A stretch of DNA of 64,000 nucleotides, taken from positions 1 to 64,000 of IMG/VR virus record IMGVR_UViG_3300017991_004328. One strand, written 5' to 3'. The position numbers and the translations under genes were made by a program. This document shows positions 6,524-55,616 of this stretch, in pieces. The notes under the pieces are model-generated. The model saw only the letters and a program-made list of their open reading frames with translations. It made no database searches and was not told the origin of the DNA. Position 1 is the first letter of the stretch, and each line of letters starts with the position of its first letter. Source of the DNA: a virus.

Positions 6524-8437
6524 CTAACCTCGTTCCTTGTTGATCATGTCCCACAAAACCGGCGCTTCGAGAATTGCAGCATAAGGAGAAAGCGCCCACA
6601 GGTTACCGTTTTCATCGTCTACTACGGTAAACTCCGCGTCCTCTTCGACTAAGTTATTCAGAAAAAGTTCGTGTTTGATTATGCTGCTTGCGCGGGTGTC
6701 GCCGTTGGGGCGCATAAGCAGTTCAGGCTCTTCAATTTGGTAGTGGTTGTTTAGCCAATTCGTAGTCACCTGTTTTAGCTTTTCGGGCCTGCCGGTCATA
6801 TACACAACTCGATCAAAAAGCGACAGAAGGTCTCCTAGACACTTTTGGGCTTGCGGGATCGGCTCGTCTTTTTCCACCAGACGTTCTTCAAAAAATCCGT
6901 CGTAGTCCCCCTCTTGTGCTAGGTGCTGTCGGTGGCTAGCGTCAGCTAAGGTGCCGTCAATGTCTAAGATTAGTACCTGTGGGAGGTTCTGAGCCTGTCT
7001 AAGAAGCTCGGCTGCCTTCTGCAGCTCCATGCCCCTATCTTCGGCTTCCTCAGCCTCCTGGGGGCTTAGATCAAGAATAATGGATTGCTTAGGGCCTTGG
7101 TTGAAAAAGTCGATTAGGTTCTTGTTTACGCTAAGTCCAAATTGGTCCAGGTACTGGTGGTACCATTTCCATCCACCTTCGGGGCGGGGACCAATTGTGT
7201 GGAAATACTTATCGGCGTACTTTTTTAGTTTTTGTGATGCCTCTTCTTCAAACAACTTATCTTCAGGAACCGCAGGCTCTACGTCACTTTGTTTCAAGTA
7301 GTCTTGGTACAGCGTACGTACGTCGTAACTTGACTTCTCCAACGCACCGAGGATTTTTTCTTGTCCTGCTCGTTGCAACAATTCAGAAGCATGTTGCTTA
7401 AAGTCTTCGTCAAAATCGTCCCAGAAGTCTTCAAACTCATCCATCTGTTGCAGCTTAGCTCGATCTGATTGAGCGTAGGCAGGGAGTTTGTAAGAAGGAG
7501 AAGCTTTTGAAGCTTCAAGCAAGGCATCGTAGACAACATCGTACATTCCCAACAACAAGTCATCGAGAAGGCCAAGTTCGATAATTACTTCGTTGTTGTA
7601 TGGACGGTCTTCGATCCACAGCACAAAGCTAATCAAGTCGTCTAAATTAGCAGGTTCAAGTTGAGCCTTTTTTAGTTTTTGTGCAATCTGATCAACTAGC
7701 TCGTGTTCAAGTATTTCGTGAAAACCCAATCCAGTCTGTTCAAACTTGTCCATAACCATTTGCCGGAAGAACCGTGGATCGTCCTCCAGTTCCTCCAAGT
7801 ACTCTTGTTTGTACTCGGCCATTTCGTTGACGATGTCGTCTATTCTAGTTTGCAACTGTTCATCGGACAGAAACGGAACAAGCTCAAACGAGGCTATTTC
7901 GTCTTCAGTCAGAGGACGATCATACACCACAACCCCGTGCCGAAACTTTGGGTGCTGCTCAACACCAATGTACCCTTTTGGAACGGTCGCAAATCCAATC
8001 GGTCTCAAAGGCACGCCATACCAATATTCAAGAGCGCTCACTTTGTACCTTCCAAGTTCGGTTTCTTGCTTAGATAAACCGTATTCCCTCTCCAAAAACT
8101 TAACTATGTTTGGGTTAACGACGTCTAAGTTCAAAACAGCGTCTGGTTCTACGTTTTTGTACATCTCAAAGTTGCCCATCGCGATTTCAATAAGCTCTTT
8201 ACCAAGGCCTTGCTTTTGGTAACGATGGTCAACAGCAACGTCGAAAGAGTATTCTCCGTTGCCGTAACCTTCCACAAGCGCAGACACGATAATTCCTTCG
8301 TCAGTGTCCACGTGCCCTGCTACAAATTCTTTGTCAGATAGAAAATTGATACCTTCCCTTTGTGCTAAAGCCCAAGGATCGTTGTTCACGAGGTCTGCGT
8401 CAAAAAGATCGTCTCCAAACAACAATTCGATTTTCAT
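6524..8437 (-). CDS. Fusion: GNAT acetyltransferase, helical linker, HAD phosphatase (PNKP type)
   Basis: A 637-residue protein with two recognisable catalytic domains. Residues ~1-130 look like a GNAT N-acetyltransferase, with the acetyl-CoA-binding motif RYQKQGLGK at 72-80. Residues ~487-637 form a HAD hydrolase: LDIDGT with nucleophile Asp492 and Asp494, YMTGR with Thr548, Lys588, and DD at 607-608, an arrangement like the 3'-phosphatase domain of T4 polynucleotide kinase. The middle 350 residues are acidic and helical. The ATG follows the adhesin stop directly (TAAATG). Placement in the late virion operon suggests it may be packaged, but that is inference. The substrates are unknown. Confidence 0.75.
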   Translation of the reverse strand: MKIELLFGDDLFDADLVNNDPWALAQREGINFLSDKEFVAGHVDTDEGIIVSALVEGYGNGEYSFDVAVDHRYQKQGLGKELIEIAMGNFEMYKNVEPDAVLNLDVVNPNIVKFLEREYGLSKQETELGRYKVSALEYWYGVPLRPIGFATVPKGYIGVEQHPKFRHGVVVYDRPLTEDEIASFELVPFLSDEQLQTRIDDIVNEMAEYKQEYLEELEDDPRFFRQMVMDKFEQTGLGFHEILEHELVDQIAQKLKKAQLEPANLDDLISFVLWIEDRPYNNEVIIELGLLDDLLLGMYDVVYDALLEASKASPSYKLPAYAQSDRAKLQQMDEFEDFWDDFDEDFKQHASELLQRAGQEKILGALEKSSYDVRTLYQDYLKQSDVEPAVPEDKLFEEEASQKLKKYADKYFHTIGPRPEGGWKWYHQYLDQFGLSVNKNLIDFFNQGPKQSIILDLSPQEAEEAEDRGMELQKAAELLRQAQNLPQVLILDIDGTLADASHRQHLAQEGDYDGFFEERLVEKDEPIPQAQKCLGDLLSLFDRVVYMTGRPEKLKQVTTNWLNNHYQIEEPELLMRPNGDTRASSIIKHELFLNNLVEEDAEFTVVDDENGNLWALSPYAAILEAPVLWDMINKERG

Positions 8438-25509: not shown

Positions 25510-25592
25510 CGGCAGGTGCTTGAGCGGTCAAAAAGGGCGGGCTGTACGAAGCCCTAGGGCAGCGGGTTTGTGTTCGAATCACACCCTGCCGA
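25510..25592 (+). tRNA. tRNA-like gene with abnormal anticodon loop, identity unclear
   Basis: Seven-pair acceptor CGGCAGG / CCTGCCG, a Ser/Tyr-like D arm (GAGCGGTCAAA), a T loop TTCGAAT and a long variable region (type II size, 82 nt plus discriminator A). The anticodon arm is odd: GGGC/GCCC pairs leave an eight-base loop TGTACGAA, or GGGCT/AGCCC leaves six bases. A normal seven-base loop does not fit. The T stem also has one mismatch. It resembles tRNA-Tyr (GTA) in its D arm but could instead expose ACG. It may be a degenerate gene or a specialised decoder. Confidence 0.5.
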
Positions 25593-25596
25593 TTTT

Positions 25597-25670
25597 GCCT
25601 GTGTAGCCCAATTGGAAGAGGCGCTAGACTTAGGATCTAGAGGTTGGAGGTTCGACCCCTCTCGCAGGCA
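25597..25670 (+). tRNA. tRNA-Leu (anticodon UAG) with short variable loop
   Basis: Complete cloverleaf: acceptor GCCTGTG / CGCAGGC, D arm with GG in the loop, anticodon stem CTAGA / TCTAG with loop CTTAGGA (anticodon UAG, reading CUA), T arm GGAGG-TTCGACC-CCTCT, discriminator A; CCA is not encoded. The variable loop is only five bases, whereas bacterial leucine tRNAs carry a long variable arm. Confidence 0.8.
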
Positions 25671-25676
25671 TTAGAC

Positions 25677-25750
25677 GCGCGGATGGTCCAACTGGTAGAG
25701 GCATTCGACTTAAAATCGAATTGTTGCGGGTTCGAATCCCGCTCCGCGCA
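25677..25750 (+). tRNA. tRNA-Leu (anticodon UAA) with short variable loop
   Basis: Acceptor GCGCGGA / TCCGCGC, anticodon stem TTCGA / TCGAA with loop CTTAAAA (anticodon UAA, reading UUA), T arm GCGGG-TTCGAAT-CCCGC, discriminator A, no encoded CCA. The variable loop is five bases (TTGTT), again unlike the type II leucine tRNAs of bacteria. Six bases separate it from the preceding tRNA, so both come from one transcript. Confidence 0.82.
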
Positions 25751-26735: not shown

Positions 26736-27203
26736 TTAACTTCTAGAGATGGCCTTCATAAGCCACATTGCGGATTCTTCGAGCTTCGTAATTGCCAAAG
26801 CCCGACTTCGGCTGTTTTCAACCTCGTCCTCGATGCAACTTAGCAAATCGCCATAAGCCGCTCTAAAGCCATCTGCCACCAGATGCTTAGCCTCATTCAT
26901 CTCCACGTGATCAAACGGTCCTAGCGGCTCTGTGTCCGTCTCAGCGGTATTCTGAAAGTTGCCCTCGACCACGTTATCGTTTTCGTCGCTCATCTCTTCT
27001 TCCTCCTCTATTGGGACGACCACGTGAAAGTCGTGATCACCGCAATCACAAGGTTCTAAAAACCCAGCTTGGCAATCGTCTTTTATCGAACCGCAAGGGG
27101 CCAAGTCTTGAGTCTCACAGGCACACCCGTCTTCTTCGTTGTACAACCCTCCATACCCGTACTCGTCGAGGCACTCTTTGACGAAGTCTTTTACGGTAGG
27201 CAT
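26736..27203 (-). CDS. Fusion of a Cys-rich phage domain with an Acb2/Tad1-hairpin-like domain
   Basis: A 155-residue protein. Residues 1-62 form a Cys-rich domain (GCACETQDLAPC, EPCDCGDHDFHVV) that I associate with a common small phage protein. Residues ~93-155 (PFDHVEMNEAKHLVADGF, then SRALAITKLEESAMWLMKAI) resemble the helical hairpin of Acb2/Tad1-hairpin proteins, phage sponges that bind cyclic oligonucleotides and block CBASS or Thoeris signalling. An ATG at 26993 (residue 71) has a very strong GAGGAGGAAGAAGAG site before it, so a separate 85-residue hairpin protein may also be made. Family assignment is from memory and moderate. Confidence 0.55.
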   Translation of the reverse strand: MPTVKDFVKECLDEYGYGGLYNEEDGCACETQDLAPCGSIKDDCQAGFLEPCDCGDHDFHVVVPIEEEEEMSDENDNVVEGNFQNTAETDTEPLGPFDHVEMNEAKHLVADGFRAAYGDLLSCIEDEVENSRSRALAITKLEESAMWLMKAISRS

Positions 27204-27315
27204 CCACGTCTCCTGGTTTCTTTCGTAGTCAAGCTACGCATCGAATCACCGAGTTAGGTCAACCACGGTATAAAGCTCGCACACGTGCTGCACTCGGGTG
27301 GTGTAGTTCATTCCT

Positions 27316-29796
27316 CTAAAGGTCAACAGCGCGAATTCTAACTAAGTGCACGGTAAACGGGTTCATCGTCAAAGACAAGCTCATGCTTCCCGATCTTACC
27401 GTCTTGATTTCCTTTGTGGCGGGTTGTACAGCACCATAACTTTTTATGATCCGCACCCCCTCTAGCAAATCCCAAGACAATCCGGAAAAACTTACTCCAG
27501 AAGCGCCTAAGGAAATATCGGTGTTGTCAACGTCGTAGTACCAAACCGCGTACGTACCCTTAGCCAGTCCAGTCAAGTCTAAAGACGTGGTACGGGTTAG
27601 GATGTCAAAGTTTACGCTTAGAACCGAAATATCTCGTCCGGAAAGGCTAGAAGTAACAATCGTATCTAAATGCTCTGCCGTTGTCGCGCTTGCTACAACC
27701 GTCGGGTGCAAAAACGAATAGAACTGAAATACTTGGTGCAGCGGAGTAAACTCCGTCAACGTGTAATCGGTGAAGTTGTTGTCTGGACAAGTAACGTCGG
27801 CAGTAGAAGTAAAGTTAACCAAGGCATTCGTTGCAGAGGCAAATCCTGCAGCATTCCAAAAAAAGAACATATCAACGCCTTCGGCCAAAAGCTTATTCAC
27901 TACTGTGGCAACGTAAGCGGCTTGCCATTGATCTCCGGGGTCGTTGTCAATGTCGTTGCTAGGACACGCCTCAAGTGCACCTGTTGTTCCTCGACCAAAC
28001 TCCTCGATAACTACTTCGGCACTTGTGTACCCTGCGTCATCTAAGTAAGTTCGTGTGTTCTCGTACGTCCTAAACACTTCACGAGGATCACAACTGTAGC
28101 GGTGCACACTCATAAAATCCATTGGGCTATTTGCAGGAAGCTGTGAAAGAAAAGCAGGTATCCACGTGGCTGAAGGAAACGCATCGTTGCAGGACAAATA
28201 GCACGGATCGCCATACCCACCTATCTTTGTGTCAGCTCGTACTTTAGGAGCGAGCGCTTCGGCAGACTCATTGTAGAAGGTGTAGAAGCTAGATGCGTCT
28301 GTAGGATCCCAAAAATACCCTAAGGGCTCGTTCGGCTCATTACCAATACTCCACCACTCGATTTGGTGGAAGTGTCGAATCATGTAATTTAGTACGCTAG
28401 CCCATTGGGTATAGTTCGCAGGAGGAGAAATATTCCAACGGATATTAGTTGCCGCCGCAGCATAAGCCGGGGAAAAGTCACCTTGGTCAGAAGCTAAGCA
28501 CAATTCTGGAGTGGGCCCGCCTTGCCTACAATCAGAAGTAGGTTGTCGAGGAACTGTCTCTACAGTCATGTACGCATCAACTTTCATCGTAAAAACAGTG
28601 TCCATAAAATCATCCAAACCTAACCCAGCGTCGTAGGTTTCCCCTGCCAAGGTATCGGTTGCAGCAATTAAGTTATTACCTGGACAGGTGTACATCGCCA
28701 CGGGGTAGAGCCCTTGTGAAAAATCGATCGTCTCCAAAGCCCGGTCGTATTTTAGTCGGTCCATGGGAAATGTCATTCGGATCATCGGTCGCTGGCTTTG
28801 ATGGGGGTTAGTCGCAGCAAACGCCGCTAAGCTAGCAAAGTCATCTCCCGAATAAAGATCTCCGGATCGTTTTACCCCCACCGAGCCTGGAGTAAAGATG
28901 TTCAAGCCGATCATAGGTACGTGGTTTAGGGTTTGCGCAACCGTAGAAGTATCGATTGCGATTGTCGGGCTTTGCGTTTTGCAGTACCCGTCAGTGTCAG
29001 CGGAGTAGATGTTAGAAATTGCAGCAGCGCTTAGCGCGTCATTGTGGATCAAAACCTCGTCGACGTATCCAATAAAGTACCCAAAGCTACCGCCTCCAAT
29101 ACCACCAGTGTCGCCAAAAAAGTAACCGCCAACTATTCCTGGATGCAAGGTAACGCCATCTGCATTTGATCGAGTTCTCGTATCTACGCTGCTACCATTG
29201 ACGTAAAGCTCGTATTCTGTATTAGCTCCCTGATCGTCTACCGTAACAGCGACATGGGTGTAGTTTGCGTCACTAATCGCAGCTTCATAAACAAGCATTG
29301 CAGGCATCCAGTTGCCTGCGTGTTCGTAAACAGAAATTCCATTAGTTCCAACCGAAACACCTACCGTAGCCTCGAACGGACCTACTAAACAATTTCCCGA
29401 GTACAGACAATCGCCCTGCGGGGGCCACAGAGCATAATTTTGTCCTTCCGTACCCGCAACATCGGAGCTTCCTGGATCTCCGTATTCAATATCGATGTCG
29501 TGTGTCGTAGTGGGCTTGACCCACATTTCCAGCGTAAAACTTGTTCCGACCGCACTTACTTCGTCGCAATTGACGTACAGGCTCGTCGAGCCGGTAAAGT
29601 CAAAACCCTTGCCTACCTTAGCAGCGGGAAATGCGATCGAACCCGTGCCCTCAATTTTCCCGTCGTTAGCTCCTGCACTATCTAAGTAGGTGTCGTTTCC
29701 TGACCACCAATTAGTCGCAGTTGACGGAAGGGTTAGGCAAGCAGCAAAAACAACTCGGGAAATTAGAAGTGCAGTGAAAAAGGCTAGAGTCTTCAT
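27316..29796 (-). CDS. Secreted glycoside hydrolase (clan GH-A type) with N-terminal LamG domain
   Basis: ATG 29796 starts a Sec signal peptide (MKTLAFFTALLISRVVFAAC). About 826 residues: a LamG/ConA-like lectin domain (~20-270), then a TIM-barrel-like hydrolase. The sequence WWSIGNEPNEP holds the probable acid/base Glu (~487) and EVVIEEFGRG the probable nucleophile Glu (~598), the spacing seen in clan GH-A families such as GH39 or GH30. A C-terminal beta-sandwich follows. Phage enzymes for capsule entry normally ride on the virion; this one carries an export signal, so it may act outside the infected cell or spread the burst. The substrate is unknown. Confidence 0.72.
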   Translation of the reverse strand: MKTLAFFTALLISRVVFAACLTLPSTATNWWSGNDTYLDSAGANDGKIEGTGSIAFPAAKVGKGFDFTGSTSLYVNCDEVSAVGTSFTLEMWVKPTTTHDIDIEYGDPGSSDVAGTEGQNYALWPPQGDCLYSGNCLVGPFEATVGVSVGTNGISVYEHAGNWMPAMLVYEAAISDANYTHVAVTVDDQGANTEYELYVNGSSVDTRTRSNADGVTLHPGIVGGYFFGDTGGIGGGSFGYFIGYVDEVLIHNDALSAAAISNIYSADTDGYCKTQSPTIAIDTSTVAQTLNHVPMIGLNIFTPGSVGVKRSGDLYSGDDFASLAAFAATNPHQSQRPMIRMTFPMDRLKYDRALETIDFSQGLYPVAMYTCPGNNLIAATDTLAGETYDAGLGLDDFMDTVFTMKVDAYMTVETVPRQPTSDCRQGGPTPELCLASDQGDFSPAYAAAATNIRWNISPPANYTQWASVLNYMIRHFHQIEWWSIGNEPNEPLGYFWDPTDASSFYTFYNESAEALAPKVRADTKIGGYGDPCYLSCNDAFPSATWIPAFLSQLPANSPMDFMSVHRYSCDPREVFRTYENTRTYLDDAGYTSAEVVIEEFGRGTTGALEACPSNDIDNDPGDQWQAAYVATVVNKLLAEGVDMFFFWNAAGFASATNALVNFTSTADVTCPDNNFTDYTLTEFTPLHQVFQFYSFLHPTVVASATTAEHLDTIVTSSLSGRDISVLSVNFDILTRTTSLDLTGLAKGTYAVWYYDVDNTDISLGASGVSFSGLSWDLLEGVRIIKSYGAVQPATKEIKTVRSGSMSLSLTMNPFTVHLVRIRAVDL

Positions 29797-29892
29797 GCAT
29801 CCCTCTCTTTTGTTTTTCTGAGAGGGTACCACAAAGATCGATTAACTTATTTCTGGCTTTCTTTCAACACGTACGTAATTTTTTTCAATTCT

Positions 29893-32492: not shown

Positions 32493-33566
32493 TCATCCCT
32501 CGCCCCCGTCAGCCGCTTCATGCTTGACGACCCATCGTGGCCAGAACGAATCGTGGCCAGCCAAAGTTCGAATGAGTTCTCGCAATGTAACGCTGTTGTC
32601 CTGCAAATCGAGCAGGAACACCCCGTCACGTTCCTCTTCGAAGATCAGCTCAATTGAGGCAAGAACCAGCGGCGAGTGTGTAGCGGTAATAAGTTGCGTC
32701 TTGGCGTTGTGCTCTCCAGTCAGGGCTTCCATCACTTCGAGCAAGGCCGGGACTACGCGTCGCTGCCATTCTGGATGCAGATGGGCTTCTACCTCGTCGA
32801 TGAGGAAGATAATCTCTGAGACAGGTGTCTCGCCACGAAGCTTGCACGCCTCCAAATGCTCTTGCCAAGTCCAGACCAAAAGATAGGCCAGGGCCACTAC
32901 TCGGCGCATACCAGCCGAGGCGTGGATGAGGGCGACGTCCTCGCCATAGGGCATCTTCAGGGTTGGGTACCTTTTCGGATCATCCAGAGAAACCTTGCGA
33001 AGATCCCCGGGGATGAGCTGTGATGGTGAGAGCGACTTCAGAACGCTCTTGAGCTGTTGAAAAGCCTCTCCGTCTTCTCTTTGCCAAGATGCCCAATCAC
33101 GAATGAGGCCTTCGCAGAGGTCGTTGCCTTCCCAGACCTGGTCGGAAGTGAAAAGATAGGACTTAGGACGATCTGAATCATCTTTTTTCCAATAGTTGCG
33201 AGCGGGATCCCAGACCGAGAACCCGCCGTCGACCTGGGCGTAGATCACCATACTCGGAATAGGCGGGCGGCCTCGCTTGACGCTCCACTCTTCGCTTTCA
33301 CGATCAAACGTGCTTGTGTAGTCGTACGTCCCACCGGCCTTCGCTTTGTAACGATAACTAATGCTCGGTCTTGCAAGTGGAGGATGAGGCACCATGGGAA
33401 GGCGCGCCCAGGTGCAAGTGAGCGCCCACCATGCGACATCAAGAAGAAAAGTCTTGCCGAGCCCATTGTCCCCAGCGAGAAAGTTCAAACGCTCTTTGAA
33501 GTCGATCTTGAGCGATGGCGCTGGGCCGACGTTTTGAAACTTCAGTGATTCAAGCTGTTTGCTCAT
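32493..33566 (-). CDS. ABC-type AAA ATPase (OLD/SMC-like head), last gene of a four-gene cassette
   Basis: Start at ATG 33566, whose ATGA overlaps the upstream stop. 357 residues. Walker A GDNGLGKT at 32-39, an ABC-signature-like SAGMRRVV near 217-224, Walker B IIFLIDEVEAHLHPEW at 252-267, and ATHSP at 295-299 as the switch-His region. The fold is that of the ATPase head of OLD, RecF or AbiL-type defence proteins, but no TOPRIM or HNH nuclease follows. Its G+C content is higher than that of the surrounding phage genes, suggesting transfer. Likely the motor of a small defence or exclusion system, with effector function supplied by the partner genes. Confidence 0.72.
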   Translation of the reverse strand: MSKQLESLKFQNVGPAPSLKIDFKERLNFLAGDNGLGKTFLLDVAWWALTCTWARLPMVPHPPLARPSISYRYKAKAGGTYDYTSTFDRESEEWSVKRGRPPIPSMVIYAQVDGGFSVWDPARNYWKKDDSDRPKSYLFTSDQVWEGNDLCEGLIRDWASWQREDGEAFQQLKSVLKSLSPSQLIPGDLRKVSLDDPKRYPTLKMPYGEDVALIHASAGMRRVVALAYLLVWTWQEHLEACKLRGETPVSEIIFLIDEVEAHLHPEWQRRVVPALLEVMEALTGEHNAKTQLITATHSPLVLASIELIFEEERDGVFLLDLQDNSVTLRELIRTLAGHDSFWPRWVVKHEAADGGEG

Positions 33567-33871
33567 TCCTTGCCCTCCACAATGCGCTGTGCGTCGCCCC
33601 ATTCTTTGCCATATTTCCAATCCAAATCTTGGCAGCAATCCCGCAAATCTCTGATCAGCCAAATGGCCACAGCCAGGCGGGCCCTGAGGTCGTCATCTTC
33701 ACCAAAACAACGACCGCACATGATGTTGGCCGCAGGCTCCCTGCCGCAACGGTGGCATCTAGCAAATACCTTTTTGTCAACGTCAACACAATGGTTCATG
33801 CCGTACAGCCTCTCGCAGATTTGCCTCACGCAAATCAGTCCAACACAGATCAGCCTCTCGCAGATGATCAT
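33563..33871 (-). CDS. Small zinc-ribbon protein; 5' end made from shifted pentapeptide-repeat DNA
   Basis: The conserved part begins at ATG 33799 (MNHCVDVDKKVFARCHRCGR) and has a CHRCG / MCGRCF zinc ribbon followed by a helix (ARLAVAIWLIRDLRDCCQDL). An ATG at 33871 overlaps the stop of the upstream gene as ATGA, in the same frame, and adds 24 residues rich in ICERL/ICVGL repeats. That extra DNA is pentapeptide-repeat sequence read in the wrong frame. Both starts are possible. Stop overlaps the start of the ATPase gene. It may link the pentapeptide protein and the ATPase. Confidence 0.65.
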   Translation of the reverse strand: MIICERLICVGLICVRQICERLYGMNHCVDVDKKVFARCHRCGREPAANIMCGRCFGEDDDLRARLAVAIWLIRDLRDCCQDLDWKYGKEWGDAQRIVEGKE

Positions 33872-36871: not shown

Positions 36872-38137
36872 CTACACCACCTGAGCAAAAGGCGCTTCAG
36901 GTGGAGTTTCGTGCTTCAACGGCGGGTCCAACGACCCACCTCCACACCACGCCGGTTCCCGACGTGAAAGCTTCTTCAAAGCCCAAGCAAGCATCACTCT
37001 GGCTGCGTTTTCATCTCGTCCGCAGATGACCCCGCATTTGCACTCATGCATGCGATCAGACAGAGACTTGCGTCTCTGCTTTCCGCATACATGACAAGTC
37101 TGCGACGGCTTGACATGACGAGTTGGAATCTCCACCCACTCGACACCAGCTTCTTCCGCTTTGTATCTGAGGAGTTGGAGGAACGCAGACGGAGATGTGT
37201 CTAAGATAGACCGATTCAATCCGGCCTTTTGCCTCACGTTTTTGCCGGGGTCTTCTTTGGTCCCACGAGCTGAACTGGTCATCGCCTTGACGTTGAGCTT
37301 CTCGGTGGCAATCAGTGCCAACATCCCAATCAACTGAGCCGATAGCTTGTGCAAAAAATCCCTGCGCTTGTTGGCCACCTGGGCATGCAGTCTGGCTACT
37401 TGGCCACGAGCCTTGGTGCGATTCTTGGAGCCTCGTTTCTTGCGGGACAAATTGCGTTGGGCTTTTCTAAGCTTGCCCATGGCTTGGTTGATGTGTCTGG
37501 GGTTCTCAATCTCCTTGGTGCAACCGTCTTCGAAGGCCAATGTGCTGAACTTTGCCGTTCCCCAATCTAGGCCTGCTGCCAATCTTCCTTTTTGCCTCTT
37601 GGGTTCACAATTCAGCGTCACAGATGCGTACCATTTGCCCTGCCTGTGCTGAATCTCCATCGTCTTTGGAGTCCCAGGCGTTCTTGCTCGGCCACGTATC
37701 GTGATCAACCCAACCCCGGACACTCTCAGCTTGCCGTTGCGCTGGCCCTCCCCAGCCAGCAGGCGCCATCCATCGCCGTGGGTTTTGTATCCCCAGCCTG
37801 AAAAGCGACGAAGAGACTTGAACCTGGGAAATCCTGCCTTGCCCTTACGGGTCCGCACTCGACGAAAGAAGTGCTGAAAAGCCAGGTCTAGGCGCTTCAA
37901 AGTCACCTGGCATGATTGAGCATTGAGCTTCTGGTAATCAGGATCATCTCTGCGGAGCTGGGTCAACTCACGGCATTGCTGGGAAAAACGAACCGTCTCT
38001 TGGCGAGACCGATAAGCCCAGATTCGATGTTCAAGCGCTGCATTGTACAGCCTTTGGTGGGCTTGCAATTGTCCTTGAAGCTGCTCCTGTTGCTTCTTTG
38101 TTGGATACAGTTGATATGTGACCTTGCGTTGTTCCAC
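36872..38137 (-). CDS. tnpB: TnpB, RuvC-type RNA-guided nuclease of the IS element
   Basis: A 421-residue TnpB with N-terminal MEQRKVTYQLYPTKKQQEQL. RuvC catalytic residues are in place: Asp191 in GLDWGTAKF, Glu279 in ATEKLNVK and Asp375 in GRDENAA. A zinc finger uses CHVCG (348-351) and CKCG (366-368). TnpB proteins use an RNA from the element end (omega RNA, here expected to overlap the tnpB 3' end and the left hairpin) to cut DNA next to a short motif and so help the element persist. All motifs are intact. Confidence 0.88.
   Translation of the reverse strand: MEQRKVTYQLYPTKKQQEQLQGQLQAHQRLYNAALEHRIWAYRSRQETVRFSQQCRELTQLRRDDPDYQKLNAQSCQVTLKRLDLAFQHFFRRVRTRKGKAGFPRFKSLRRFSGWGYKTHGDGWRLLAGEGQRNGKLRVSGVGLITIRGRARTPGTPKTMEIQHRQGKWYASVTLNCEPKRQKGRLAAGLDWGTAKFSTLAFEDGCTKEIENPRHINQAMGKLRKAQRNLSRKKRGSKNRTKARGQVARLHAQVANKRRDFLHKLSAQLIGMLALIATEKLNVKAMTSSARGTKEDPGKNVRQKAGLNRSILDTSPSAFLQLLRYKAEEAGVEWVEIPTRHVKPSQTCHVCGKQRRKSLSDRMHECKCGVICGRDENAARVMLAWALKKLSRREPAWCGGGSLDPPLKHETPPEAPFAQVV
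36877..36904 (-). repeat. Subterminal hairpin of the IS element (tnpB end)
   Basis: CCACCTGA and TCAGGTGG form a perfect eight-base stem with a 12-base loop, inside the last codons of tnpB. It fits a TnpA recognition hairpin and would also be part of a guide RNA. Confidence 0.7.
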
Positions 38138-53151: not shown

Positions 53152-53873
53152 TTTTTACTAAGCTCCTGGAGCTTGTTGTACAACGGTAAGAGGTTTTCAG
53201 GATAGCGCATTGGCTTAGACCGTTTTAGTTTTACGTCAGGAAATTTTCGATCAACATCGGCAATAACGGCATCAACCACTTTTTCGATTCCCGCCTTCGT
53301 CAGTATCTCGTCAAAGGAGATAAACTTCCAAGGGCGTGTACTGTCGGCATAGTGGTTTAAGATGTTTAGGTACATGTCTTCCCACACACCAAACAAGTAA
53401 GAGGCGTCGTGTTTGTAGTTTGCTAGGTACTTAGCTTTTCTTATCTCCTGCCGCATACTAGAAACCGTAATTCCAGGGTTTCGAAAGACGACCAAAACAA
53501 CGGTGTTGGAGGGAAGATAGGCGTCCCAGGTAGGAAATGTGTACGAAAGCCGGGGGTCCTTCAAACAAAACGGTTTGGGTCTTGGTTGCAGGTACTTTCT
53601 AATCAGCACCCGCTGTTGATAAGTCGAGTACAGCGGCGTACCTGGAGCTAATCTTTTTAACCACCAATGCCCCCTCGGTACCTGTCTTTGCGTTGTTTGC
53701 TTCAGTATCCCCTCATTGATCTCGTGGTTGACCGTAGAATCCTCGAAGAAGCCTTTCGGATTAGCAGGGCTCGGCGGAATAAGATTGTCGCCGTGCCAAT
53801 GCGTTTTGTTCATAAGCCCCGCCAGTAGGCTGCTTCCACTTCTACCGGACCCGAGAACCACGACGTTTTTCAT
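53148..53873 (-). CDS. Sulfotransferase-like protein
   Basis: A 241-residue protein with P-loop GSGRSGSSLLAGLM near the start, NPKGFFEDSTVNHEI and VVFRNPGITVSSMRQEI, again the sulfotransferase layout. It is the third such gene in a row and shares ATGA-type overlaps with both neighbours. Different acceptors for the three enzymes would explain the triplication; this is inference. Confidence 0.75.
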   Translation of the reverse strand: MKNVVVLGSGRSGSSLLAGLMNKTHWHGDNLIPPSPANPKGFFEDSTVNHEINEGILKQTTQRQVPRGHWWLKRLAPGTPLYSTYQQRVLIRKYLQPRPKPFCLKDPRLSYTFPTWDAYLPSNTVVLVVFRNPGITVSSMRQEIRKAKYLANYKHDASYLFGVWEDMYLNILNHYADSTRPWKFISFDEILTKAGIEKVVDAVIADVDRKFPDVKLKRSKPMRYPENLLPLYNKLQELSKK

Positions 53874-54772
53874 TTTGAGAAAACCTTTTTGAAGCTAGAA
53901 ATTATTGTTTGCGGGTGCGTCCACCGCGTATGTTGGTTGTTGGGCAACCACGGTTGTGCAAGCATTTTCAAATAAGCCTCGTCGTTGCTGTCCAAAAAAG
54001 CTACCTGATCTAGCAGTGCCCTCAGTACTGACGAGTATCCGCTAATGCCCTTGTGGTAGGGGTGAACAAAACTATCTCCGTTGAAGTCTCTGCACACCTC
54101 AGGATTACCCCAATAAATAGGAATCGCATTAGCTAGCATCGCATGGTAGATCTTCTCGGTTGTGTAACCGGGGTAAGCACTGTTCTCAAAGGAGATGACA
54201 AACTTGTACGGTTTGAGGTAGTCTATTTTTTCCTGAAAAAAGTTTGGACTGCTGTGCCTGCTGCTGTGCGGGTCTTTGTACCCACCGATCGGTTTTGCAT
54301 TGTTCCTGCAGTTACCCGGCGAATCGACTCGCTTGTACTTGTTCAAAACATCGAACATTTGATTTCGAATTGTAATGTTGTGGGCGTAGACGAATGCACA
54401 AAACTTAGTTTTGCTAGCTAGGATTTTTTCGGGGTCGTAATCCTTGGGTTTGATTAGGTCTTGTCCTGCACCATTCTTGACGTAGTTCGGCACCCGAAAG
54501 TAATGCGGCTTTTGAATCTCATCTTCGTAGTCAGTGCCCATGCACCAATCACAATTTTTTGTGTCCGGCCTTACGTTCTCGTTGTTGAAAAATATCCTGG
54601 TGTAATTTGTTCTTCCTTTGATCCCCTGCCCAGACAAGACATGTGTTGGGTTAGCCCGATCGTGAATAAACTCGAAGTGATCGAAGAGGTATGTCATTTT
54701 TCGGAAGAACCTGTTGGCGGTAAGTTGCTTGCTCCACATATTGCGAACGTCGGTGCGGACTCTTGTTTTCAT
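53870..54772 (-). CDS. GT10 alpha-1,3-fucosyltransferase
   Basis: Start at ATG 54772 (MKTRVRTDVRNMWSKQLTAN), 23 bases after the preceding stop. About 300 residues. It carries the GT10 signature: KFCAFVYAHN, YKRVDSPGNCRNN, FVISFENSAYPGYTTEKIYH and AIPIYWGNPEV. GT10 enzymes transfer fucose from GDP-fucose. A second GT10 gene lies at 58.6 kb. The two share a conserved DNA stretch around codons for ILASKTKFCAF. Confidence 0.82.
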   Translation of the reverse strand: MKTRVRTDVRNMWSKQLTANRFFRKMTYLFDHFEFIHDRANPTHVLSGQGIKGRTNYTRIFFNNENVRPDTKNCDWCMGTDYEDEIQKPHYFRVPNYVKNGAGQDLIKPKDYDPEKILASKTKFCAFVYAHNITIRNQMFDVLNKYKRVDSPGNCRNNAKPIGGYKDPHSSRHSSPNFFQEKIDYLKPYKFVISFENSAYPGYTTEKIYHAMLANAIPIYWGNPEVCRDFNGDSFVHPYHKGISGYSSVLRALLDQVAFLDSNDEAYLKMLAQPWLPNNQHTRWTHPQTIISSFKKVFSK

Positions 54773-55616
54773 GTCTTTTTCTTTCGTACGCACGCTCAAC
54801 TGGATCGAGTGCTTTTTCGATCGGGTCTTGCGAAATCGCTTGTGAGAACAGACCATGCGATCGCAGCCACTCCCGGAACCTGCCCATTTCCAGTGGCTTT
54901 GACGCGGTCCATCCGATTGGCCACCCCATCATCCACTCGCGCAAAGCGGGGTAGACGCCACCAGTCAGTGACTTCACACCTCCCTTGTTGCTGCCGTAGA
55001 GACTTGCTGTTGGTGTTGGCAATTTGTTCAGCACCGTAGCCAAACCATTGCCCGACCTGGAGGACGCCCCTTTCTTGTTGTAGTCTCCGCATACTGTCAA
55101 GGTTGGCAGCATTTCCAATCCACTCACTGGACACGGCAACGATCCACATTCGTCTTCGCTCATGGTTCGCACCGATGTCCCCAGCTCCCAATACCCCGAC
55201 CCGTCCCACATACCCCATGCTGATAAATCTCTCGACGATTGTGGCCAACCCCTTGGTACGTAGGTGCGGACTGTTTTCCGTGAACACAAACGTAGGCCGC
55301 ACTTCATCAACAATTCTGAGCATTTCGTAGACAAGCCCAGAACGTGATCCGGTAATTCCAGCACCTTGACCCGCCGCACTGATATCCTGGCATGGGAATC
55401 CTCCGCTAATGACATCAACGTGTCCGCGCCAGGAGCGCCCGTCGAACGTGCGAACGTCGTCCCATATTGGGAATCGGGGCAAGCACCCATCTCGCTGTCT
55501 GCCGAGCAATATCTGCTGGCAGTAGGGATCAAGCTCGACAGCGCAGACGGTGCGCCATCCAAGCAAGTGTGAGGCCAGCAAGCCGCCTCCTGCCCCTGCA
55601 AATAATGCCAGCTCAT
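54651..55616 (-). CDS. Overprinted frame with methyltransferase-associated sequence
   Basis: A 321-residue frame overlapping almost all of the cytosine methyltransferase in a different phase. The region residues ~55-245 contains strings that I recall from proteins annotated with phage Dcm genes: SRKTVRTYVPRGW, SGYWELGTSVRTMSEDECGS, LPTLTVCGDYNKKGASSRSG and ALREWMMGWPIGWTASKPLE. The last ~75 residues run past the end of the methyltransferase. No ribosome site was identified. It may be a real overprinted gene or may reflect old frame errors in databases. Confidence 0.45.
   Translation of the reverse strand: MSWHYLQGQEAACWPHTCLDGAPSALSSLIPTASRYCSADSEMGACPDSQYGTTFARSTGAPGADTLMSLAEDSHARISVRRVKVLELPDHVLGLSTKCSELLMKCGLRLCSRKTVRTYVPRGWPQSSRDLSAWGMWDGSGYWELGTSVRTMSEDECGSLPCPVSGLEMLPTLTVCGDYNKKGASSRSGNGLATVLNKLPTPTASLYGSNKGGVKSLTGGVYPALREWMMGWPIGWTASKPLEMGRFREWLRSHGLFSQAISQDPIEKALDPVERAYERKRHENKSPHRRSQYVEQATYRQQVLPKNDIPLRSLRVYSRSG

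Follow-up and report, generated by a model that had tools for sequence, protein, structure and literature searches.

Does a small phage gene encode a sponge for immune signals, and what is the sponge doing in one reading frame with a cysteine-rich domain and a second, internal start? The gene lies on the minus strand of a window of 64,000 nucleotides (the whole stretch of DNA that was analysed), which belongs to a virus record of 87,270 bases, IMG/VR IMGVR_UViG_3300017991_004328. The original prediction, made from the letters alone, described two genes fused in frame, the first Cys-rich and the second resembling the hairpin of Acb2 and Tad1, with a strong ribosome site at 26993 from which the second might still be made alone; an anti-defence function, with block of CBASS as the model, was expected.

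Layout of the fusion gene

The gene and its parts are as follows.

26736–27203 (minus strand), fusion gene of 155 amino acids, stop included, with an ATG start and two in-frame domains that each have homologues
27210–27214 (minus strand), Shine-Dalgarno-like AGGAG of the full-length start (ATG 27201–27203) with a 6-nt spacer, from the sequence and a duplex energy of -7.4 kcal/mol
27012–27203 (minus strand), Cys-rich N-terminal domain, residues 1–64, modelled as a helix and four strands (pLDDT 89.5), with relatives in about 40 records
27072–27125 (minus strand), invariant four-Cys motif C27-x-C29-x7-C37-x6-C44 with DLxPC, a candidate metal site (27 of 27 sequences)
27002–27008 (minus strand), internal Shine-Dalgarno-like GAGGAGG with an 8-nt spacer to the ATG (duplex -12.0 kcal/mol)
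26991–26993 (minus strand), in-frame internal ATG (Met71) at which an 85-aa product with the hairpin alone might start, from sequence, duplex energy and accessibility
26916–27011 (minus strand), acidic linker of low model confidence, residues 65–96 (lowest pLDDT blocks 63–65)
26739–26915 (minus strand), Acb2/Tad1-type hairpin domain with a short lead-in, residues 97–155, from PF24729 and predicted helices
26742–26879 (minus strand), Pfam PF24729 match, residues 109–154

The reading frame runs across all 155 residues with no internal stop. A chance open reading frame is excluded by two independent homologies in one frame, one before and one after the joint. Nor does anything point to a frameshift introduced by the assembly: over 10,465 bp the window is matched, without any difference, by a second contig of 136,432 bp, and that explanation was dismissed on the identical contig together with the two homologous domains in one frame. 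Being identical, the contig cannot inform on how the internal start evolved. The fusion gene's immediate upstream neighbour (27316–29832, minus strand) encodes an 838-aa protein with matches to a LamG-like lectin and to glycoside hydrolase family 39.

The C-terminal hairpin

By sequence similarity, the C-terminal half belongs to the Acb2/Tad1 hairpin superfamily (PF24729), many members of which are, to our knowledge, uncharacterised. The Pfam model Acb2_Tad1_hairpin scores 37.1 bits with the full protein (residues 109–154) and 38.8 bits with residues 71–155, both above the curated gathering cut-off of 27 bits. It scores 38.7 bits in the search of virus records, and none of the 14 control genomes matched. 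The C-terminal half also matches PHROG 1454, a family of unknown function, at 6e-7, and in a phage genome collection the whole protein matches proteins of Curtobacterium phages that carry the annotation "cyclic nucleotide sequestering protein". The NCBIfam search gave no family for either half. Profiles built from seven or 44 hairpin relatives and run against all solved proteins recovered Acb2 homolog 43 (PDB 9ptq, 4.5e-11), Tad1 chains (about 4e-5), and T4 Vs.4 (7e-4); classical Acb2 was marginal in this search (E 0.44).

The AlphaFold model contains two antiparallel helices (residues 104–127 and 132–154; block pLDDT 90–99). With the hairpin model as query, Foldseek ranked T4 Vs.4 bound to cGAMP first of 350,542 chains, with Tad1 and Acb2 chains within the top 12, and in VIA-align ranks 1, 3, and 4 went to Vs.4 and Acb2 (Z about 7). 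A two-helix hairpin is a common protein shape; no Foldseek E-value is better than 0.6, and unrelated helical proteins also attain VIA Z values in the range of 7. For such a fold the structural scores prove nothing alone; they agree with the sequence family. The predicted resemblance to the Acb2/Tad1 hairpin is thus borne out by a profile match above the curated cut-off and by a model that is a two-helix hairpin and no other fold.

Four residues (R132, T139, E142, and W147) are invariant across the 44 hairpin relatives and all are kept in the window protein, as is R114, which is present in 40 of the 44. There is therefore no sign of decay at the conserved hairpin positions; these key positions were judged by conservation rather than by mapping contact residues. 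The hairpin relatives at 80 viral loci are, with few exceptions, free-standing proteins about 60–75 residues long. Their hairpin is preceded by a lead-in of the form F-x-Y/H-x-x-P. The corresponding F97-x-H99 of the window protein aligns with these relatives and with 9ptq, and AlphaFold predicts no helix there.

The Cys-rich domain and the internal start

Residues 1–64 have no match in Pfam, PHROG, or NCBIfam. Iterated searches found the same domain as a whole protein of 67–74 residues in Vibrio phage IKEMa6-1 and podovirus ctQWt234, and within an Alicycliphilus plasmid protein. It is also present, mostly free-standing and in some cases joined to unrelated partners, in about 40 other phage or prophage-like contigs. 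Eight positions (G19, L20, C27, C29, D33, P36, C37, and C44) are invariant in all 27 aligned sequences, and the window protein carries every invariant position of this unnamed stand-alone family, GL...CxC-x7-C-x6-C with DLxPC. The Cys-rich first half of the original prediction is accordingly a conserved domain, and its separate existence in other phages fits the proposed in-frame fusion. The domain is probably zinc-binding, as suggested by four invariant cysteines in a presumably intracellular phage protein.

The fold of the domain gave few leads. Its profile has no sequence match to solved chains, Tad1 included. Comparison with PDB folds gave no match to rely on (best Foldseek E 2.3, best VIA Z 2.3), and Tad1 is missing from these lists of matches, an absence that does not amount to exclusion. 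The search of BFVD returned only A0A6J5PD24, a phage protein of unknown function (E 8.9e-5).

At six loci (L013, L016, L017, L030, L135, and L139) the domain heads unrelated proteins, and inspection by eye of the neighbours of stand-alone copies revealed no consistent partner. Its recurrence on many unrelated phage proteins suggests that it is probably an accessory module that binds a partner or ligand or affects stability or localisation. At another locus (L140, 2941–3711) two tandem, near-identical copies are followed by another domain, which looks like a recent in-gene duplication.

The combination with a hairpin is unique within this sample. Two search rounds gave 39 other records with the N-terminal domain (27 and 12). 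PF24729 exceeds its cut-off in one of the 39, on a different contig of a bacterial bin, and another record (one of the 27) has a sub-threshold match elsewhere in the record. No other fetched locus has the hairpin motif within about 3 kb of the domain, and the motif of the domain is near none of the 80 hairpin loci except on the identical contig. The two domains were modelled separately, as a joint MAFFT alignment misaligned their relatives. As a natural fusion to a putative sponge, the gene marks its partner as a domain that was worth tethering for the phage, and so offers a guilt-by-fusion clue to a phage domain that is common but has no known function.

Between the domains, the ribosome site that the original prediction placed at 26993 proved to be strong. 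The internal ATG has a duplex with the anti-Shine-Dalgarno of -12.0 kcal/mol, against -7.4 kcal/mol for the gene's own start. None of the 180 internal in-frame ATGs with which it was compared, from 32 open reading frames of the window, is as strong; the best reaches -9.5 kcal/mol. Only one of the 32 ATG starts of these reading frames has an equally strong site, and the accessibility of the internal site is at least the median of the 32 real starts.

These values can be set against an explanation that we give a little under an even chance, in which the protein is the same sponge made as a single 155-aa product, the run EEEEE being an acidic linker and the Shine-Dalgarno-like sequence its little-used by-product. 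The internal site is encoded within the codons for the five Glu, and 29% of synonymous EEEEE codings, weighted by phage codon use, are equally strong. The full-length start has an adequate Shine-Dalgarno of its own, and its AUG is open in the accessibility analysis. Met71 is 26 residues before the conserved Phe; stand-alone hairpin relatives start nearer to it (about 2–20 residues before). A single product does not sit easily with the strength and 8-nt spacing of the internal site, which are at the top of the real starts in this phage, nor with the position of Met71 at the domain boundary, where it opens an ordinary-looking protein start, MSDEN. The Shine-Dalgarno is strong but lies in poly-Glu coding, and the relatives start closer to the hairpin, so internal initiation at 26993 is plausible and a good hypothesis from the sequence, with the chances about evenly balanced. 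The fusion gene is a clear and cheap test case for internal initiation in a phage anti-defence gene.

Proposed function and related proteins

We think it somewhat probable that the gene encodes a phage anti-defence fusion, an Acb2-like sponge for cyclic di- and trinucleotides with a Cys-rich accessory domain, and with an internal start that is possibly used. The C-terminal hairpin would most likely self-assemble into a hexamer that sequesters cyclic oligonucleotide alarm signals, the cyclic di- or trinucleotides of CBASS. These may include cA3, which is common to CBASS and type III CRISPR. With the signal sequestered, the host effector would not be switched on. The four-Cys domain, which probably binds zinc, would be tethered to the hairpin by the flexible acidic linker, and the ribosome site in the linker may yield the hairpin alone and so a mixture of subunits with and without the tag.

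Sponges of the Acb2 type are almost always tiny proteins with a single domain. Acb2 (PaMx33/PaP2 p26, T4 Vs.4, and the 9ptq homolog 43) shares with the window protein the PF24729-type hairpin and the key positions, with a short lead-in that can be aligned between them, and Acb2 and its homologs are the best structural and profile matches of the hairpin. Acb2 is a single domain of about 60–95 aa, whereas the window protein adds a 64-residue Cys-rich domain and an acidic linker. Given the extra domain in frame, the protein is filed as a hairpin-superfamily fusion and not as Acb2 proper; only the hairpin-only product, if made, would be single-domain. In the Acb2 hexamer each protomer has a short helix and two long helices, three cyclic dinucleotides occupy pockets to which paired protomers contribute N- and C-terminal parts, and the trimer interfaces hold two cyclic trinucleotides (PMC12043709; PMC10419184). 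The fused domain and linker directly precede the lead-in, a segment that contributes to the dinucleotide pocket in Acb2, and could disturb such a pocket.

The hairpin could instead be an oligomerisation module that binds no nucleotide and only gathers the Cys-rich domains, which would then be the functional part. We regard this as unlikely. It would suit a domain that heads several unrelated proteins and occurs as two tandem copies in L140. The conserved Arg, Thr, Glu, and Trp of the hairpin family are all retained, however, and hairpin relatives are overwhelmingly free-standing, with nothing to oligomerise.

Fusion of the hairpin to other domains has precedents in the beta-domain of Tad1 and in an RyR protein, and the novelty here lies in how domains are combined and does not amount to a new kind of system. 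The second precedent came from Sulfitobacter phage phiCB2047-B, where SUFG_00048 (L042, 608–1174; 188 aa, annotated as hypothetical) matches RyR (PF02026, 40.5 bits) and PF24729 (33.4 bits). Like the window gene, it encodes an N-terminal phage domain and a PF24729 hairpin in one open reading frame; its partner is RyR, while the partner in the window is a domain without known function. Phage RyR-type proteins have recently been reported to break down or sequester the ADPR-based signals of Thoeris (PMC13232231), which makes it plausible that the phiCB2047-B fusion combines two modules directed against signals. By analogy, a similar anti-signal role for the Cys-rich domain is thinkable but not likely. 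The stand-alone proteins of IKEMa6-1 and ctQWt234, and A0A6J5PD24 by predicted fold only, have the same N-terminal domain (CxC-x7-C-x6-C with DLxPC) and differ in having no hairpin attached.

A bolder reading is a two-headed anti-defence protein, which we consider quite unlikely. The Cys-rich domain would be a second immune-evasion module that binds or destroys another signal or a defence protein, and both forms would be made from one mRNA by internal initiation and assemble into mixed hexamers. If true, this would name a new anti-defence family, the domain being widespread in phages.

Tad1 (Thoeris anti-defence 1) also ends in a hairpin of this Pfam family, preceded by an N-terminal domain. 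Its gcADPR pockets combine loops and the C-terminal tail of one protomer with helices from the other (PMC12043709; PMC10419184). That the window protein is a Tad1-like anti-Thoeris protein, its N-terminal domain replacing the beta-domain and helping to form such a pocket, is very doubtful: the order of a beta-containing domain and then a hairpin is kept, the motif SR..A.TKLEE..MW is close to that of Tad1, and the model of the domain has four strands, but the domain is Cys-rich, has no relation to the beta-domain of Tad1 that its profile or structural matches could detect, is joined by a flexible linker of about 32 residues, and exists alone in other phages. With the hairpin and a lead-in present and the Tad1 beta-domain undetected, the Acb2-like di-/trinucleotide sponge is our best guess.

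Several other genes in the window were noted, all on the minus strand except the tRNA genes. A 637-aa protein (6524–8437) combines GNAT-like, DarA C-terminal (defence against restriction), and PNKP-type HAD phosphatase matches in one chain. An AAA_21/AAA_15 ATPase (32493–33662, AbiEii/OLD-like) lies in a region of small genes, and 36872–38137 encodes an IS605 OrfB or TnpB-like protein with a Cas12f1-like TNB domain. The window also encodes a glycosyltransferase of family 10 (53870–54856, alpha-1,3-fucosyltransferase type). On the plus strand, opposite to most genes, are two tRNA-Leu genes (TAG and TAA) and a third tRNA with an unclear anticodon (25510–25750).
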